From contig NZ_JALAAD010000001.1 of assembly GCF_022984075.1 (NCBI RefSeq), positions 124,001 to 188,000 on the forward strand: a DNA stretch of 64,000 nucleotides. The letters run 5' to 3'. Under the pieces are notes generated by a model, which was given only the letters and a program-made list of their open reading frames with translations, was not told the origin of the DNA and made no database searches. The position numbers and the translations under genes were made by a program. Positions 8,038 through 14,952 of the stretch are shown here, in pieces. The stretch is from Synechococcus sp. C9. Its GTDB lineage: Bacteria; Cyanobacteriota; Cyanobacteriia; Gloeomargaritales; Gloeomargaritaceae. The first letter of the stretch is position 1. The number at the start of each line of letters is the position of its first letter.

Positions 8038-8147
8038 AATTTTCCCCAGCACATCTGTGGGTATGATAACTCAGTTTCCGCTCCGAAAGACTTACACAAT
8101 GCTGAACGAAAGCGAACTTTTGTTCAACTTGTTGCTGACTTCCTGAT

Positions 8148-8219
8148 TCAACGACTCATGCCTAGTTGGCGAACCAACCCCGGCAGAGGAATCTCCACAG
8201 GCGTAACTTCCCCTAGAGC
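8148..8219 (-). pseudogene. C-terminal tail of the interrupted TnpB
   Basis: The minus-strand frame ending at TGA 8148-8150 reads ALGEVTPVEIPLPGLVRQLG then MSR and stop, which I recognise from memory as the usual C-terminus of cyanobacterial IS200/IS605-type TnpB proteins. An in-frame TAA at 8220-8222 marks the foreign DNA. The rest of tnpB resumes near 13913, on the same strand, where its protein breaks off right after the IDRDLN motif. The simplest reading is that the four-gene element inserted between these two points. Confidence 0.7.
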
Positions 8220-8365
8220 TTAGGGTAGTTTGATACCACTTCACCAGGTTTAAGGTTGCATTCTTCTATAGACCCCAATATCTTATTACACAACAAAGAA
8301 AAAAGAACAACAACAACGGGATTTTATGTGCTAGGCTATATGTGTCTTAGATTCTTTAACGTATA

Positions 8366-9478
8366 ATGAGTGTGACCGTAGAGACAGCGATTGACCCCGC
8401 CACAGGTGAGCACTTTCGTTGTGTATTTGACTCCAAGACCTGTTTGCCCGTTGAACCAATTCAGAGATTTCTGAACTACTGCCGGAAGCGAGGGTTAGCG
8501 GCCAACACGGTCGAAACCTACGCTTACCGCTTGGTGGATTACTGGCGGTGGCTGGAGTACAAAGCCTTGAGCTGGGATAGTGTTGGACTAGATGAGTTGG
8601 CTGATTTCGTAAACTGGTATTTGCTCGGGGGTGATGTGGAGGTCATCCACGAGTCCTTAAGGGAGCGAGTTTCCAAGCGTAGCCCCAAGACAGTCAACCA
8701 GGCGATGACCGCCATTCAAGGGCTGTACGAGTTTCATGCGGCGGAGGGGCGGATTGACGATAAGCGGTTTATCAAGCTGGCTCACGGCTGGGGTAAACGT
8801 GGCGGCTTCCTGCGGGGCATCGTCAAGAGCGGGCCGGAGCGTCGTAAGCGGCTCAAGCTCAAAGAACCCAAGGTCTTCCCTGGTTGCCTCAGTGATGCGG
8901 ATGTCGTGCGCCTGGTTGAAGGTTGCCTCTGCTACCGCGACAAGCTGATTGTGATGCTCTTACGTGAGACGGGTCTGCGCCGTGGCGAGCTACTGGGGTT
9001 GCATCTGATTGATGTTCAGGATGTGGATGTGACAGGGCGGTTGCGTGTTGTCCGGCGTGATAATCCCAACGGTGCCTGGGCGAAAGGAACTGAGCGAGTT
9101 GTACCTATCCTGCACAACCGCCGCACTGTGCAAGAGATGCTGCGTTCGTACCTGCTGGAGGAGTATCCGCCCGAAGCGGAACAGCTCGGTCACGGGATGC
9201 TGTTTGTCTCCTTAGAGGGGGAGCAGCGCGGTCAGCCCATGAGCCTTGTGCGACTGAACAAGCTCTTTGAAGAATTGCACAGTCGTACTGGCATCAAGGC
9301 GCACCCACATCTGTTCCGCCACACTTTTGCCACACGGATGTTGCAACAGGGCTACCTCGACCAGTATGTGCAGCAATTGCTTGGCCATCGTTCCATCAGC
9401 ACCACCAAAGACATCTACAGCCATGTTCTCGATGAGATGAGTTTGGGAAGTTTTATGGATGGGGAGGAAGAGCAATGA
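8366..9478 (+). CDS. Tyrosine recombinase 1 (TnpA-like integrase)
   Basis: A 370-residue protein with an N-terminal SAM-like core-binding domain (residues about 30-130: FLNYCRKRGLAANTVETYAYRL) and a C-terminal catalytic domain. The catalytic set is complete: first Arg in LLRETGLRRGELLGL, HLFRHTFATRM for His-x-x-Arg, LLGHRSISTTKDIYSHV for the second His and the nucleophilic Tyr. It should cut and rejoin DNA through a 3'-phosphotyrosine link. A TATAATG overlaps the ATG, so transcription likely starts farther upstream. Its stop overlaps the next start (ATGA). Confidence 0.9.
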   Translation: MSVTVETAIDPATGEHFRCVFDSKTCLPVEPIQRFLNYCRKRGLAANTVETYAYRLVDYWRWLEYKALSWDSVGLDELADFVNWYLLGGDVEVIHESLRERVSKRSPKTVNQAMTAIQGLYEFHAAEGRIDDKRFIKLAHGWGKRGGFLRGIVKSGPERRKRLKLKEPKVFPGCLSDADVVRLVEGCLCYRDKLIVMLLRETGLRRGELLGLHLIDVQDVDVTGRLRVVRRDNPNGAWAKGTERVVPILHNRRTVQEMLRSYLLEEYPPEAEQLGHGMLFVSLEGEQRGQPMSLVRLNKLFEELHSRTGIKAHPHLFRHTFATRMLQQGYLDQYVQQLLGHRSISTTKDIYSHVLDEMSLGSFMDGEEEQ

Positions 9479-10944
9479 GTGCTGTACTTTTAGCTGACCT
9501 GTATGAGCGGGTCAAGCAATCAGAGCTAGGTAGTCAGTGGTGCAGTGACCCGCTGATGCAACAAGATGTCTGGCCACTAACAGCATTGGGCTTCGACGAA
9601 GAGTATTGTCGTGTCCACGGCGCAAAGAACGTCTATTTCACACGCATTACGCTTCCTTGGCTGAATTATTTAGCAAAACTTACGGCGAAGGCGCGGGTGC
9701 GAGAGAAGTGTTCAGCCAGACGAATCATTGCTGATACCCTCTGCTTAGCCCACCTCAATGAGTTTTTGCTGGCTCATGGCTACAGCCAACCCGTAGGCAT
9801 CACAGACAGTCTCCTTAAAACGTTCATCTCAGAGGCTAACAAGGGGCATCGGCACAGCACCTTGGTATTTGCAACACGCCTTTGGGCAGAGGAGGGTTGG
9901 TTGACCCTGCCATTCACCCCCATGCGAATGAGGAAGCCGACACCCAAGGTGGAGACTATTCCTGAAGAGGTGTTGCACCAAATCTACGAGCATCTTGACC
10001 TTTTTCCTGCGCCCTTGGAACGCTTGTTTCGGTTGCAAATTGCTTTAGGGTGCCGCATCAACGAGATGTTGCTCATGCCGCGCCATTGCCTCAAGCAGGA
10101 AGGAGAGCACTGGTTTTTACTACGCTGGGTAGCCAAACGGAAGCAGTGGCGTTATTTCCAGGTGCATCCTCTGGTTGCCGAGTTAGTGCAAGAGCAGCAA
10201 CGTTTTTTGGACGAACAGTTTGGCAAGGATTCTCAGTTCAACAAACTTTTCTGTAAAACATCCACAGCATTTAAGGACGGGGCAGAAGTAGGAGGGCGTT
10301 TTCAAGTTGAGCCTGTTTATGAGCCTAGCCCCTTGTCGTTTATGGTAATTCACTTATGGCTCAAAGCGTTCAGGGAAGTTGCCAATCTCAAGGACAAGCA
10401 GGGCAAGCCTTTTCCTCTCACCAGCCACATGTTTCGTCGCACCAAGGCCAGTGTGATGGCGCATTGTGAAGTTGAAGACGAGTACATTGCTGCGGTTTTA
10501 GGGCATGGTTCCCTCGACATGTTGCCTCATTATCGTAAGCGGTCTTTAGAACGGCTAGAGAAACAGGCAGAAACCAAGGGATACGTGGACATGTACGGGC
10601 GGGTAACCACCTACAAGCCCCGCAAGCAACGCTACGAAAAGTTAGCTGACCTGATGAAGGTTACGACTCCCCTTGGTGAGTGCCATCGCCCCAGTATGTT
10701 GGGCGATTGCCAGTACCGTTACGCCTGCCTAAGTTGCACCCATCACCGAGTTACAGAAGCAGACATTCCACAACTAGAGGCAGATAAGCAACAAATGGAG
10801 CTTGACCTTGAACGTGCCCAAATAGCTCAACAAGAGCGGCGCGTAACCGAGATTCAAAGGTTGCTGGAACTTGTAAACAATCGCCTGCAAGGATTAAAGG
10901 AACTGCAAAAAGTACGGGAGGAAAATCAACATGAGTCAGCGTAA
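9475..10944 (+). CDS. Tyrosine recombinase 2
   Basis: A 489-residue protein. Catalytic residues are visible in the middle-to-C-terminal part: Arg in QIALGCRINEMLL, SHMFRRTKASVMAHC (His-x-x-Arg), VLGHGSLDMLPHYRKR (His and Tyr). Beyond the catalytic domain is a tail with a Cys cluster (CQYRYACLSCTHH) and a long charged coiled coil (residues about 430-485), of the kind used for protein contacts in Tn554 TnpB proteins. It starts within the stop codon of recombinase 1 and ends overlapping the start of recombinase 3, so the three are translationally coupled. Confidence 0.88.
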   Translation: MSAVLLADLYERVKQSELGSQWCSDPLMQQDVWPLTALGFDEEYCRVHGAKNVYFTRITLPWLNYLAKLTAKARVREKCSARRIIADTLCLAHLNEFLLAHGYSQPVGITDSLLKTFISEANKGHRHSTLVFATRLWAEEGWLTLPFTPMRMRKPTPKVETIPEEVLHQIYEHLDLFPAPLERLFRLQIALGCRINEMLLMPRHCLKQEGEHWFLLRWVAKRKQWRYFQVHPLVAELVQEQQRFLDEQFGKDSQFNKLFCKTSTAFKDGAEVGGRFQVEPVYEPSPLSFMVIHLWLKAFREVANLKDKQGKPFPLTSHMFRRTKASVMAHCEVEDEYIAAVLGHGSLDMLPHYRKRSLERLEKQAETKGYVDMYGRVTTYKPRKQRYEKLADLMKVTTPLGECHRPSMLGDCQYRYACLSCTHHRVTEADIPQLEADKQQMELDLERAQIAQQERRVTEIQRLLELVNNRLQGLKELQKVREENQHESA

Positions 10945-12952
10945 ACACCTGCCGATTTCAAGGCATCAAACGCTCAACGGGATTCTTGAAGTGAATTGGC
11001 TGCAAGACTACCAAGGTGAGTTTACCTGCCCACAATGCAATCAAGGAAGACTTACTAAGGCTTACTTCGCACACGGAAGTATTAATGGTGTTCGGCTTGA
11101 ATGTAACTCCTGCGGTCAGTACACTTACCTCTCATGTACAAGCCAGCGTAAGCATCTGCCGATTTCAAGGCATCAAACACTCAATGGGATTCTTGAAGTG
11201 GATTGGCTTCAAGACTACAAAGGTGAGTTTACCTGCCCACAATGCAATCAAGGAAGACTTACTAAGGCTTACTTCGCGCACGGAAGTGTTAATGGTGTCC
11301 GTCTTGGATGCAACTCCTGTGGTCAATACACTTTCCTCTCCTGTGAAAATCCTGCTTACATCTACAACTATCAAGCAGACTTGGAATGTCCTAACCCTCT
11401 TTGTACTGGCATTGGTCCAAGGGGTCAAAGGGGATGGATTTACAAATGTAACGATCTAGGGTACGGCAGATGTCGCTATTGCAAGATAATTTTTGAGCCT
11501 TCAGCTACCGTTCAATACAACTGGCAGGGTAGGCAGAAGTTGCAAGAACTACTCCCGTTTGACTTTGCCGCTAATACCTGGGACTTGCGGCACTTCTATG
11601 AAAAGCCCTACTACCGACTCCTTACTTTTGATGGCATTGAACCTGATTGGTTCTGCTTGCAGGCAAAACAGTATTTGCACTACCTACTCAAAGCTCAAGT
11701 ATATTCTTCAACATCCCAAATCCGTGCCATCCGTGCTGTGCTGGGACAGTTGGGCGAAGTGCTTAAGCAAAGAAAATGTTCATCACTGCAAGACATCAAG
11801 CGCAGTGACATTCTGAACCTGATTGATGCTTGGCAAAGCATAAAAGGGCGAACAGTATACACAAAGCTCTATCAGCTTAAGGAGTTTTTGAGTTGGGCTG
11901 GCCTTGAGGCTGAAGCCTTAGTTAAACGCAGAGACTTTCCCAAGATTCGTCATGATGACCCCGTATGGTTGGATGAACCCACTCGTTCTGCTATCAAGTC
12001 GCACCTGCACAAATTACCAGAGCCACTAGCAAGGCACTACTTGGTTCAGGAGTACACAGCCGCACGACCCGGTGATGTCTGCCAGATGCAGTTTGACTGC
12101 CTCGTTGCGGAAAACAGCAAGTGGTACATCCGTTTCTTTCAGCAGAAGACCAAACGTTGGCATCAGATTCCAGCTAACCGTGAAATCCGGCGCATCATTG
12201 AAGCACAGCAAGCTTGGATACGACAGACCTTAGGCCCAGACTACAATTACCTGTTCTGCCACTTCAGGGTTTTCAAAAAAGGTTCTTACCCGAAATTCAG
12301 CCGTATTAAACCTCTCCCAGAACCACCTAAGACAAATGCTGATGTTAACCCAATGGTGCGAGCGATTCGCTATCTCATTGAAGCGGAGGACATTCGGGAC
12401 AGCAACGGTCAACAACCCCACTTCACGGGTCGAATCACCCGCTCTAGCCGCCTCCAAGAGATACGGGTCAAGCACGGGATAGAAGCAGCCCAACTCTACG
12501 CTGACCATGTTTCCAGCACAACAACCTTTCAGCACTACGCCCCACCCACTCGTGAGCAGGTTGCAACGGCTGACCTCCCCTTCCAAGAGCTACTGCTTAA
12601 CCCCGACAACAAGTTCCTGCCCTGGCAATCCCTGCCCGAGAGCCTGCTGAAAAACCCTAAAGCCCATGAGTTAGACATTGAGATAAACCCCCGTCTTACC
12701 GTCTACGGCCATTGCGCTCTTGACCCCAAGACTCCCTGCCCTCACAACCTTTACCCCAAGTGCTACGGCTGTAGTAGTTTCCGACCCAGCACTGGCAAGT
12801 TGCCCCTTTACGAGCGGCAGTACCAAAGCGAAGTACAGCGTATGGAACAAGCAAAGACAGCAGGCGCAGAGCTGTCCTACGAGGAGGCTAAAGCGACTGT
12901 GGAAGCGATGAAGCAGTGGCTACCACAACTCAGGGAGGTGGCTCATGGCTAG
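10931..12952 (+). CDS. Tyrosine recombinase 3 with duplicated zinc ribbon
   Basis: A 673-residue protein. The N-terminus has two tandem copies of a 69-residue zinc-ribbon unit (CPQCNQGRLTK ... CNSCGQYT), followed by another Cys-rich segment (CPNPLCTG, CRYCKIIF). A core-binding domain (about 240-330) and a catalytic domain follow, with Arg in EYTAARPGDVCQMQF, HFTGRITRSSRLQEI, and ADHVSSTTTFQHYA for the last His and Tyr. A late Cys motif (CPHNLYPKCYGCSSF) precedes a helical tail. The size and Zn motifs resemble Tn554 TnpB more than a classic RIT third gene. It overlaps its neighbours on both sides. Confidence 0.87.
   Translation: MSQRKHLPISRHQTLNGILEVNWLQDYQGEFTCPQCNQGRLTKAYFAHGSINGVRLECNSCGQYTYLSCTSQRKHLPISRHQTLNGILEVDWLQDYKGEFTCPQCNQGRLTKAYFAHGSVNGVRLGCNSCGQYTFLSCENPAYIYNYQADLECPNPLCTGIGPRGQRGWIYKCNDLGYGRCRYCKIIFEPSATVQYNWQGRQKLQELLPFDFAANTWDLRHFYEKPYYRLLTFDGIEPDWFCLQAKQYLHYLLKAQVYSSTSQIRAIRAVLGQLGEVLKQRKCSSLQDIKRSDILNLIDAWQSIKGRTVYTKLYQLKEFLSWAGLEAEALVKRRDFPKIRHDDPVWLDEPTRSAIKSHLHKLPEPLARHYLVQEYTAARPGDVCQMQFDCLVAENSKWYIRFFQQKTKRWHQIPANREIRRIIEAQQAWIRQTLGPDYNYLFCHFRVFKKGSYPKFSRIKPLPEPPKTNADVNPMVRAIRYLIEAEDIRDSNGQQPHFTGRITRSSRLQEIRVKHGIEAAQLYADHVSSTTTFQHYAPPTREQVATADLPFQELLLNPDNKFLPWQSLPESLLKNPKAHELDIEINPRLTVYGHCALDPKTPCPHNLYPKCYGCSSFRPSTGKLPLYERQYQSEVQRMEQAKTAGAELSYEEAKATVEAMKQWLPQLREVAHG
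10934..11347 (+). repeat. Tandem 207-bp duplication inside recombinase 3
   Basis: Bases 10934-11140 and 11141-11347 are near-identical direct copies with a 207-bp (69-codon) period, so the frame is kept. The start of unit 1 (agtcagcgtaaacacctgcc) matches that of unit 2 with two changes (agccagcgtaagcatctgcc). Substitutions are mostly silent or conservative, which suggests the doubled Zn ribbon is tolerated or selected. Confidence 0.95.
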
Positions 12953-13865
12953 AGGCAACCGTGAGAAGCAGACTGAAACGCTCCGCCAGGCACAACAGCA
13001 ACGCAAAGAGCAGAAGCGGCAACAGGTGTTTGAGGCGGTACGGACGCTCCAGCAACAGGGCAAGACCATCACCTTTGCAGCTATTGCTCGTGTTGCTCAA
13101 GTTTCTATCAGCTATCTCTACAAATGGCCGGAAGTCAAGGACTACATTCAGTCGCTTCGCGAGGAACAATCTCATCAGCTTGCCCCCTTACCTCAAGAAG
13201 CTGAACCTGGGCCATACAGCCTCAAGACCCTGCATGAGGTCGCCCGCAAGCGTATCAAAGAGCTAGAGGCTGAGATTCAGGAGCTAAAGCGCCAGAACGA
13301 ACTGTACCGAGGGCATGTTGCGGAAATCTTTGAGTTGCGCGATGAGGTAGAACGCTTGCGGGAGTTGTTGCGGCAGTTCACTGAGCCTCGCCCCACCTCC
13401 AAGGTTGTGGCACTCCAAGCGGTAGCCCCCAGCACCGCCTCAGACATTGATCCAGACATTGTACAGAAGCTAGAAACTTTGGGTGTAAAGCTCGGTGTAC
13501 GCCTCCAGCGTGAGATTAAGCAACACAAGCCAGAGAAAGTCATGCTGGCAATTGAAGCCTTTGAGCAGTACCGCTCGCAGCATGTGGTGGAGAACCCTGC
13601 GGGTTGCCTCCTACAGATGATTCGAGATGGGGCGGAACCGAACGTACCCTTGGAGGCACCTGTACCTGAGATGGATGAGTTTGACCGCTGGTACGCTGAG
13701 GCCATTGCTCAGGGATTCTGCCTTGACATCCCCCGCCGCTACCTAAGCACGATGGGAACGGAGCCTTTGGTTAAGGTAGTGGATAAGAGCCGTTCTGAGG
13801 GCTATCAAGTCATGCCCTGGAGGGAGGCTAGAGAGTATCAAAAGAGCTTACGTCGTGGAAGATAG
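12945..13865 (+). CDS. TnpC/DUF6262-like DNA-binding coiled-coil protein with Rep-like C-terminus
   Basis: A 306-residue protein. Residues 1-75 resemble DUF6262/TnpC: a charged helix then a helix-turn-helix (TFAAIARVAQVSISYLYKWP). A coiled coil follows at about 95-150 (KRIKELEAEIQELKRQNELY). In Tn554 the small TnpC helps set insertion orientation. Unlike that protein of about 125 residues, this one has a C-terminal domain (EKVMLAIEAFEQYRS, ENPAGCLLQMIRDG) reminiscent of the C-terminal part of cyanobacterial plasmid replication proteins. That similarity is from memory and should be tested. It overlaps the recombinase 3 stop by 8 bp and closes the element. Confidence 0.7.
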   Translation: MARGNREKQTETLRQAQQQRKEQKRQQVFEAVRTLQQQGKTITFAAIARVAQVSISYLYKWPEVKDYIQSLREEQSHQLAPLPQEAEPGPYSLKTLHEVARKRIKELEAEIQELKRQNELYRGHVAEIFELRDEVERLRELLRQFTEPRPTSKVVALQAVAPSTASDIDPDIVQKLETLGVKLGVRLQREIKQHKPEKVMLAIEAFEQYRSQHVVENPAGCLLQMIRDGAEPNVPLEAPVPEMDEFDRWYAEAIAQGFCLDIPRRYLSTMGTEPLVKVVDKSRSEGYQVMPWREAREYQKSLRRGR

Positions 13866-13893
13866 AGACTATTATTTAGGCTAAACAAGACTT

Positions 13894-14952
13894 TTACAAC
13901 GTGGAGTATACATAAGAATTTAAGTCGCGATCTATCTCCTCTAAACTGCAACTTTCACAACTAAACACCCTTTGGCTCAGCGGTATCTTTTGTTGATGAC
14001 CACAGCGAGAACACAGCTGGCTGGACGGATAGAACCTATCCACCACCACCAACTGACAGGCGTAGAGTTTGGCTTTGTACTCTAGCTGTCGCTTGAACTC
14101 ATAAAAACCGCAGTCAGCGATACTACTCGCTAACTTATGGTTCTTGAGCATACCTGATACATTCAGGTTCTCAACTACCACCACCCGGTGTTTTCGGGTT
14201 AAGTAAGTAGTAATCTTGTGCAGATTGTCTTTCCTGATGTCTGCAATTCTTTTATGAACTTTTGCCACCCGCTTGACCGCTTTCTTCCGGTTCTGCGAGC
14301 CTTTTTTCTTCCGGCTTACCTGCCTTTGCAACCGCTTTAAGCGCTTCTTCGCTCTTCGGTAGGGCTTAGGGTTAGCAAAGACTTTCCCATTAGAACAAGC
14401 GGCGAGGTTGTTAATGCCTAAATCAACCCCGACAACTTCTTCTTCTTTCTCTGGTAGTTCTGGCTCAGGAGCTTCAAACGTAAAAGAGATAAACCAACGG
14501 TCGGCTTGACGACTGATGGTTACGTTCTTAGGGCATACCGCTGGCAACTGCTCATGGCATTTTAACCACCCAAAGATGGGAACCTTGATTTTGTTCCCAG
14601 AAATTCTCGTGCGCCCCTCTAAATAGAAACTATCTCGTCTGCCCCTTTTCTTGAATACAGGGAATTTTCTCTCACCCTTACACCAACTCTTAAAACCTGC
14701 CTCTAAGTTTCGTAAAGCTTGCTGTGGGGCGCATTTAGAACATTGGTAGTACCAAGGATTTTCCTTCTTAACCTCCGCAACCAACCGCTTATGCAAATCT
14801 ATAGCCGTGGGAACCTTTTGCTTTTCCTCTATTGCCTTTTTGCAGACCGCTAAACCCCAGTTGTAAGCGTGTCTGGCTACCCCAGCGTGTTGGCTTGCCA
14901 AGGTTCTTTGCTTGTTATTCAGGTCTAGCTCTGTTTTGAAAGCTAACAACAC
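13894..14952 (-). pseudogene. tnpB: TnpB (IS200/IS605-type RNA-guided nuclease), 3'-truncated by insertion
   Basis: The 352-codon frame holds nearly all of a TnpB: RuvC-I Asp177 in VVGVDLGINN, RuvC-II Glu261 in VVVENLNVSGM, a zinc finger (Cys314, 317, 332, 335) and IDRDLN with the third acidic residue at about 341-343. After that it diverges (SYVYSTL, stop) because the recombinase element is inserted there; the natural tail lies at 8148-8219. TnpB uses an omega RNA made from the gene's 3' end and the IS end. That RNA is now 5.7 kb away, so guided cutting is unlikely even if the protein still folds. Confidence 0.85.

Follow-up and report, generated by a model that had tools for sequence, protein, structure and literature searches.

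In the 64,000-nucleotide stretch of the Synechococcus sp. C9 genome analyzed here (contig NZ_JALAAD010000001.1, positions 124,001 to 188,000; hereafter the window), a four-gene element of 5,652 bp (8264–13915) interrupts a tnpB gene, which encodes an RNA-guided nuclease of the IS200/IS605 type, at the codons of the RuvC-III D-x-N motif. Together with the transposition and target model proposed below, we consider it highly probable that, within the Tn554 superfamily, this element represents a branch with four genes and a duplicated TnpB. In addition, the attachment sites of the lineage are probably catalytic or metal-binding motif codons in other genes for DNA processing, most of which belong to mobile elements (TnpB RuvC-I/RuvC-III, HNH CxxCH, RecD-like helicase, integrase and Y-family polymerase); the lineage would switch its target between clades and mobilize toxin-antitoxin cassettes via derivatives that retain only the element ends. 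What is new is the target choice; the gene plan is already known.

The window is a segment of a 2.96-Mb genome, and the closest named relative found was Gloeomargaritales cyanobacterium VI4D9. The element ends were defined by comparison of all copies; the original prediction had placed the unit roughly correctly, at 8220–13912, and the comparison shifted its limits to 8264–13915, bordered by two 6-bp cores. When the two flanks were joined, they read ...SLEEIDRDLN-ATLNLVKWYQTTLSSRGSYACGDSS, and the interrupted gene was identified as an IS605-type tnpB. This location (13922–14952 plus 8092–8263), which we judge to be the most interesting feature of the element, had been overlooked in the original prediction. 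The features of the element and its target are as follows.

8092–8263, − strand: 3′ remnant of the interrupted IS605-type tnpB (...NATLNLVKWYQTTLSSRGSYACGDSSAG...), left core included; rejoined with the right flank, it gives one open tnpB frame
8258–8263: left 6-bp core GCATTC (GAATGC in the tnpB sense), the target's own sequence, with an exact match in the intact tnpB of genome G175
8264–8365: left end of the element, with the terminus TTCTATAGAC, the subterminal AACAACAACAAC motif and the leader region of gene 1; common to all copies, with a variant form in the Nostoc and G306 elements
8366–9478, + strand: T1, tyrosine recombinase of 370 aa, TnpA homologue, RHRHY complete
9475–10944, + strand: T2, tyrosine recombinase of 489 aa, TnpB homologue 1, RHRHY complete, C-terminal Cys motif
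10931–12952, + strand: T3, tyrosine recombinase of 673 aa, TnpB homologue 2, first catalytic His replaced, N-terminal zinc-ribbon repeats
10934–11137, + strand: first zinc-ribbon repeat unit of T3, sharing 91% identity with the second
11141–11344, + strand: second zinc-ribbon repeat unit of T3
12945–13865, + strand: T4, TnpC-like protein of 306 aa (DUF6262), with a helix-turn-helix (HTH) at about residues 44–59, a coiled coil at 93–146 and a helical C-terminal part
13866–13915: right end of the element, with the terminus GTATACATAA and the adjoining ACAACGTGGA motif
13916–13921: right 6-bp core GAATTT (AAATTC in the tnpB sense), a foreign 6-bp footprint not present in empty sites
13922–14952, − strand: 5′ portion of the interrupted tnpB, which breaks off after ...EEIDRDLN in the RuvC-III motif and whose frame now stops inside the element, at 13894

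Target site in tnpB and the 6-bp footprint

The targets were readable for seven insertions; two further copies (C1:1875 kb and C1:5.5 kb; L010 and L012) were left out, their right ends being eroded. Five of the seven interrupt tnpB, all at the same codons; of the other two, one lies at GRDLN codons of a methyltransferase gene and one (L039) in non-coding DNA. The tnpB hit by the C2 copy is another one, reading CRDEN. In VI4D9, L038 and L041 interrupt tnpB genes reading PRDGN and PRDWN, and a copy consisting of the ends only lies in a tnpB reading DRDQ-NAAINILKKGLEML. A profile search with PF07282, the C-terminal TnpB domain, detected 13 domains in two genomes, five of which stop at position 55–56 of the 60 profile positions, exactly at an element end; by our own estimate, the likelihood of five chance matches among thirteen such short domains in ~6 Mb is negligible. 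In G175, a very IS605-rich genome in which no element copy was seen, about 40 places match the tnpB end targeted by the VI4D9 copies.

The empty site was reconstructed from the window flanks by keeping the left six bases and dropping the right six. Intact tnpB genes of VI4D9 (76%) and G175 (74%) aligned to the reconstructed site with no gap at the join, and that of G175 carries the left core base for base. The copy at the methyltransferase site showed the same footprint behavior, with a gap-free alignment to a paralogue. Therefore, insertion adds exactly six foreign bases on the T1-distal side. Moreover, the right core of L039, the copy at the off-consensus site, is GAACGG, which is also the left core of the near-identical L038 and L041, and in Nostoc SO-36 the right core of the pANSO36C copy (AGCGGC) recurs as the left core of the pANSO36B copy, the two copies being 99.9% identical. 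As judged from these comparisons, the 6-bp footprint is of the type described for Tn554 and the strand-biased circularizing integrative elements (SEs) (PMC10214605).

The ends themselves are compact. When GTATACATAA and TTCTATAGAC are brought together, two inverted arms of ~10 bp flank six bases, as is typical of core sites used by tyrosine recombinases. The terminal inverted repeats are only ~10 bp long, with 7–8 of 10 positions matching, and the AACAACAACAAC motif near the left end is retained in very distant cousins.

Copies of the element and their derivatives

Two Gloeomargarita-type genomes contain five full-length copies, each at a different site, and three of these are 99.9–100% identical. 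The second copy in the genome of the window (C1:1684–1691 kb) is 97–99.96% identical to the first, and its T3 is broken by the insertion of a DDE transposase (L009:4319–5296; C1:1686.8–1687.8 kb); the window copy is therefore the sole intact one found in its own genome. In VI4D9, three copies of 5,412 bp are located at three loci, with 99.9–100% mutual identity and 91–93% identity to the window copy. The four-gene unit is also present in Nostoc, Brasilonema, Anabaena, Fischerella and others. As the unit recurs in its own genome, in the sister genome and in other cyanobacteria, it is not a chance assembly, and its distribution indicates that it is mobile. The original prediction had called for a search for the same gene order in other cyanobacteria and an alignment of the outer ends, and both led to the expected result, with recurrence at different loci and defined ends.

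In addition to the full-length elements, four non-autonomous copies were detected, three in the genome of the window and one in VI4D9, mostly with toxin-antitoxin-like genes. Those in the former genome match both element ends only (~120–140 bp each) and enclose other genes:

C1:1875.5 kb (L010:2283–2934): end-only copy with a PIN-domain gene and a small partner of 74 aa
C2:37 kb and C1:5.5 kb (L011:2566–3552 and L012:2225–3184): end-only copies with DUF4160-DUF2442-DUF2442 genes

Both modules resemble toxin-antitoxin cassettes. As T1 still has its first codons and T4 its last codons in the copy at C1:1875.5 kb, the end-only copies look like full elements whose interior was replaced, and they were probably mobilized in trans. 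The end-only copy of VI4D9 has itself been struck by an insertion sequence.

Sister lineages and their targets

Elements on plasmids of Nostoc, Brasilonema and Anabaena harbor the same four genes (57–59% identity in T3) and similar ends, most of them with a WGR gene. All seven plasmid copies are located in HNH endonuclease genes, always between C and CH of the C-x-x-C-H motif; six rejoined frames are intact, and the seventh copy (L037), which is end-truncated, has a matching left junction. More distant four-gene elements occupy the RuvC-I codons of a tnpB in Chondrocystis NIES-4102 (GFDF-GLKVF), a tyrosine-recombinase (integrase) gene (ALVM-LLFC) and, in Acaryochloris MBIC10699, a Y-family polymerase gene (PVVIAS-NNDG), while G306 contains two copies in a RecD-like helicase gene (AVTI-HKAQGSE) with swapped cores. 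At each of the RuvC-I tnpB, RecD-like, integrase and Y-family polymerase sites, the rejoined flanks form one open frame.

Between the ends of the window element, no passenger gene was found besides the four open reading frames. The description "cargo-free" in the original prediction thus fits the window copy and does not extend to the lineage, as WGR, ATPase or DnaB genes are present in relatives, and toxin-antitoxin-like genes in the non-autonomous copies. In Nostoc-type elements, the sole cargo is a small convergent WGR-domain gene (e.g., L031:8856–9125). A replicative DnaB helicase gene lies downstream of tnpC and overlaps it in Fischerella (L040:6603–7913), Stanieria (L118:6737–8050) and Chondrocystis (L035:8339–9700). 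The position of the DnaB gene beside tnpC may point to replicative (copy-out) movement.

Gene content and relationship to Tn554

All four reading frames are intact on the + strand, and neighboring frames overlap by 4, 14 and 8 bases. Pfam searches identified Phage_integrase in T1 (2e-30), T2 (6e-10) and T3 (1e-6) and DUF6262 in T4 (2e-12). T1 and T2 contain the catalytic set R-H-R-H-Y, while T3 reads R-R-H-Y; R379 is retained in T3, but the His of HxxR, the first His of the set, is missing, with Arg in its place in the window copy and Lys or Ala in relatives, and this loss is common to all T3 orthologues. The four coupled genes of the original prediction were thus borne out, together with their assignment to three recombinases and a TnpC-like protein, and its statement that all three recombinases are complete holds for T1 and T2 and fails for T3.

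Tn554 inserts into radC. With the true Tn554, which carries erm(A) and ant(9), as a reference for homology, T1 aligned over its length to TnpA and grouped with TnpA-type proteins. T2 (E 1e-16) and T3 (E 3e-19) both matched TnpB, including its C-terminal G-x-C...C...C-x-x-C motif. T4 is a TnpC homologue: it is contained in, and detected by, a profile constructed with Tn554 TnpC, and DUF6262 is the annotation at the TnpC position in Tn554-like elements. As T2 and T3 are both TnpB homologues, the gene organization is that of Tn554 with a duplicated TnpB. At the DUF6262 loci examined in other phyla, two recombinases were present, while both three-gene and four-gene forms were found in cyanobacteria. 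In maximum-likelihood trees, the four-gene elements formed one clade for T1 (100/99), for T2 (97/98) and for T3 (100/100), with a broadly matching inner order; T2 and T3 of MBIC10699 were placed on long branches. Since each of the three recombinases forms a single clade and the orders match, the four-gene set arose once among the sampled elements and its members traveled together. Thus, the distinct lineage suggested by the original prediction was recovered. Its alternative, an intermediate between Tn554 and the recombinase-in-trio (RIT) elements, was not, as T2 and T3 are both of the TnpB type and the protein sizes and the presence of TnpC fall outside the RIT definition.

The window element and Tn554, along with the TnpABC elements, agree in the order of their TnpA, TnpB and TnpC homologues, in the overlap of the genes and in the Cys motif at the TnpB C terminus. 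Site-specific insertion into a conserved gene with a 6-bp footprint and no target duplication is also common to the window element, Tn554 and the actinobacterial, Legionella and three-gene cyanobacterial TnpABC elements (PMC10214605). In contrast to Tn554, the window element has four genes rather than tnpABC only, with two TnpB proteins; it contains no resistance gene or other cargo, and its TnpC is 306 aa long, compared with 125 in Tn554. Furthermore, its lineage targets tnpB or other enzyme-motif codons instead of radC, and it is multi-copy with non-autonomous derivatives.

Proposed transposition and alternative explanations

Sequence comparison establishes the unit, its ends, copies, targets and empty sites, the 6-bp footprint and the single origin of the four-gene set; from these we infer a circular intermediate, a copy-out mode and a role for each protein. 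The element would form a circle whose junction, GTATACATAA-N6-TTCTATAGAC, is a putative Xer-like core site carrying the left core. Acting together, the recombinases may occupy the arms and, assisted by TnpC, carry out recombination between core and target. In the exchange of the 6-bp crossover, the six bases of the target would stay T1-proximal and the six bases of the donor would go to the other end. The six target bases would fall within conserved motif codons, namely the RuvC-III D-x-N of IS605 tnpB in the window clade and other enzyme motifs in the sister clades. The original copy may remain in place (copy-out, as argued for SEs; PMC10214605), and the small end-only derivatives would be mobilized in trans with their toxin-antitoxin-like genes.

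Several observations weigh against this interpretation. T3 lacks one catalytic His, and its catalysis is putative, as are the circle and the excision. Two of the seven readable insertions lie outside tnpB (the methyltransferase gene at RDLN codons and the non-coding DNA), and the full independence of L038 and L041 is open to doubt, because 127 bp of their left flanks are identical. Few donor/copy pairs back the 6-bp rule, and the Nostoc cores are constrained by coding.

A different account of the gene set is provided by the GInts, in which three tyrosine recombinases and a small TnpC-like protein are cotranscribed as an operon, with a 6-nt crossover, short imperfect end repeats, and a high target specificity that favors ssb or an ABC-transporter gene (PMC5385486). 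The window element has the same gene number and order (an ordinary recombinase, two more recombinases and a TnpC-like protein), with an operon suggested by the overlaps, as well as the short imperfect repeats and 6-nt crossover (PMC5385486, PMC10214605). If its genes were orthologous to ginABCD, the element would be a cyanobacterial GInt and the four-gene plan would be old and shared, not a lineage-specific duplication of TnpB. However, GInts are defined with 2.5–70 kb of cargo after ginD and an AT-rich 3′ region (PMC5385486), whereas the right end of the window copy lies 50 bp past T4 with neither; small cargo does occur in its cousins. The first Arg is missing from GinC (PMC5385486), whereas in T3 it is present and the first His is absent. 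The phyla listed for GInts do not include cyanobacteria (PMC5385486), and the targets differ, the two being compared by their published description. We regard a GInt identity as rather unlikely. A second question is whether the element chooses its target at all, since it could have been carried passively in IS605 copies moved by their own TnpA. IS605-type elements are mobile, and the identical left flank of L038 and L041 would fit such carriage. Nevertheless, the interrupted tnpB genes belong to clearly different families (DRDLN, CRDEN, PRDGN/PRDWN and DRDQN) with otherwise unrelated flanks and an identical junction codon, one copy occupies the RDLN codons of a methyltransferase gene, and sister lineages are equally precise in non-IS genes. 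The cutting of different tnpB families at one codon rules out passive IS605 carriage as a candidate, leaving this explanation next to no probability. It is also improbable that the element gains by disabling a rival RNA-guided nuclease, with sister lineages disabling HNH nucleases likewise. The two best-sampled clades do target nuclease genes at catalytic or metal-binding codons, but the remaining sister lineages insert into helicase, integrase and polymerase genes, and a truncated TnpB may keep its catalytic Asp. The pattern also has a simpler explanation: in widespread genes that the host can spare, no DNA is better conserved than the catalytic codons. Thus, a duplicated-TnpB branch of Tn554 with its own target choice is the reading that we prefer.

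The gene set alone is not new, because three recombinases with a TnpC-like protein are known from GInts (PMC5385486). SEs likewise contain three recombinase-fold proteins and a TnpC-like protein and are confined to Gammaproteobacteria (PMC10214605); the original prediction had missed both groups. No link was found by blast between SE and GInt genes (PMC10214605). The window element resembles SEs in its four translationally coupled genes, the 6-bp fingerprint or footprint rule and the presence of more than one copy per genome, but the second protein of SEs (Tfp) has no catalytic motif, whereas T2 keeps R-H-R-H-Y. With RIT elements it shares three adjacent, overlapping tyrosine recombinase genes, the absence of cargo and, in some cases, a position inside transposase genes (PMC3414803, PMC10214605). 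In contrast, RIT elements consist of three recombinases of 315–410 aa and no further gene, compared with 370, 489 and 673 aa plus TnpC here; their terminal inverted repeats are ~34 bp instead of ~10 bp, and T2 and T3 are of the TnpB type with zinc-ribbon and Cys motifs. Protein size, the presence of TnpC and homology rule out RIT membership. Nor is the element a member of the gamma-mobile-trio GmtY/VPA1267 family (NCBIfam), to which T1 (4e-12) and T4 (0.017) matched weakly, far under the curated cut-offs.

The open-licence literature searched, in which absence is weak evidence, yielded no report of duplicated-TnpB Tn554-type elements in cyanobacteria, of insertion at TnpB catalytic codons, or of lineage-wide targeting of enzyme-motif codons. 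The present data portray the Tn554-type elements of cyanobacteria as a diversified family of recent activity, in which TnpB is duplicated and cargo is absent. One of them directly interrupts TnpB, a Cas12-related nuclease that is guided by RNA. The unresolved transposition route of Tn554, GInts and SEs becomes testable with the exact ends, the empty sites and the donor/copy pairs described here. A target rule based on conserved enzyme-motif codons in host-dispensable genes would explain landing sites in many genomes, and the cores and arms form a compact recombinase system with a natural target change between clades, which is useful for studies of tyrosine recombinase specificity.

Additional observations

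Viral contigs scanned with T2 contained no relative, and a comparison with PHROGs gave generic integrase matches only. The predicted model of T4 consists of the HTH and the coiled coil, and in a comparison with the PDB no match was better than E 0.5; the AlphaFold model of T3 was set aside, its mean pLDDT being 38. The number of zinc-ribbon units (~70 aa) in T3 is one in VI4D9, two in the window and up to four in Nostoc (L029–L033 and L038 compared), a lineage-specific expansion. The idea that the repeat number serves as a target code was unsupported, because Nostoc elements with two to four repeats are all located in HNH genes. On Stanieria pSTA7437.01, a three-gene TnpABC element (L118:3140–6744) starts just downstream of a tnpB gene.

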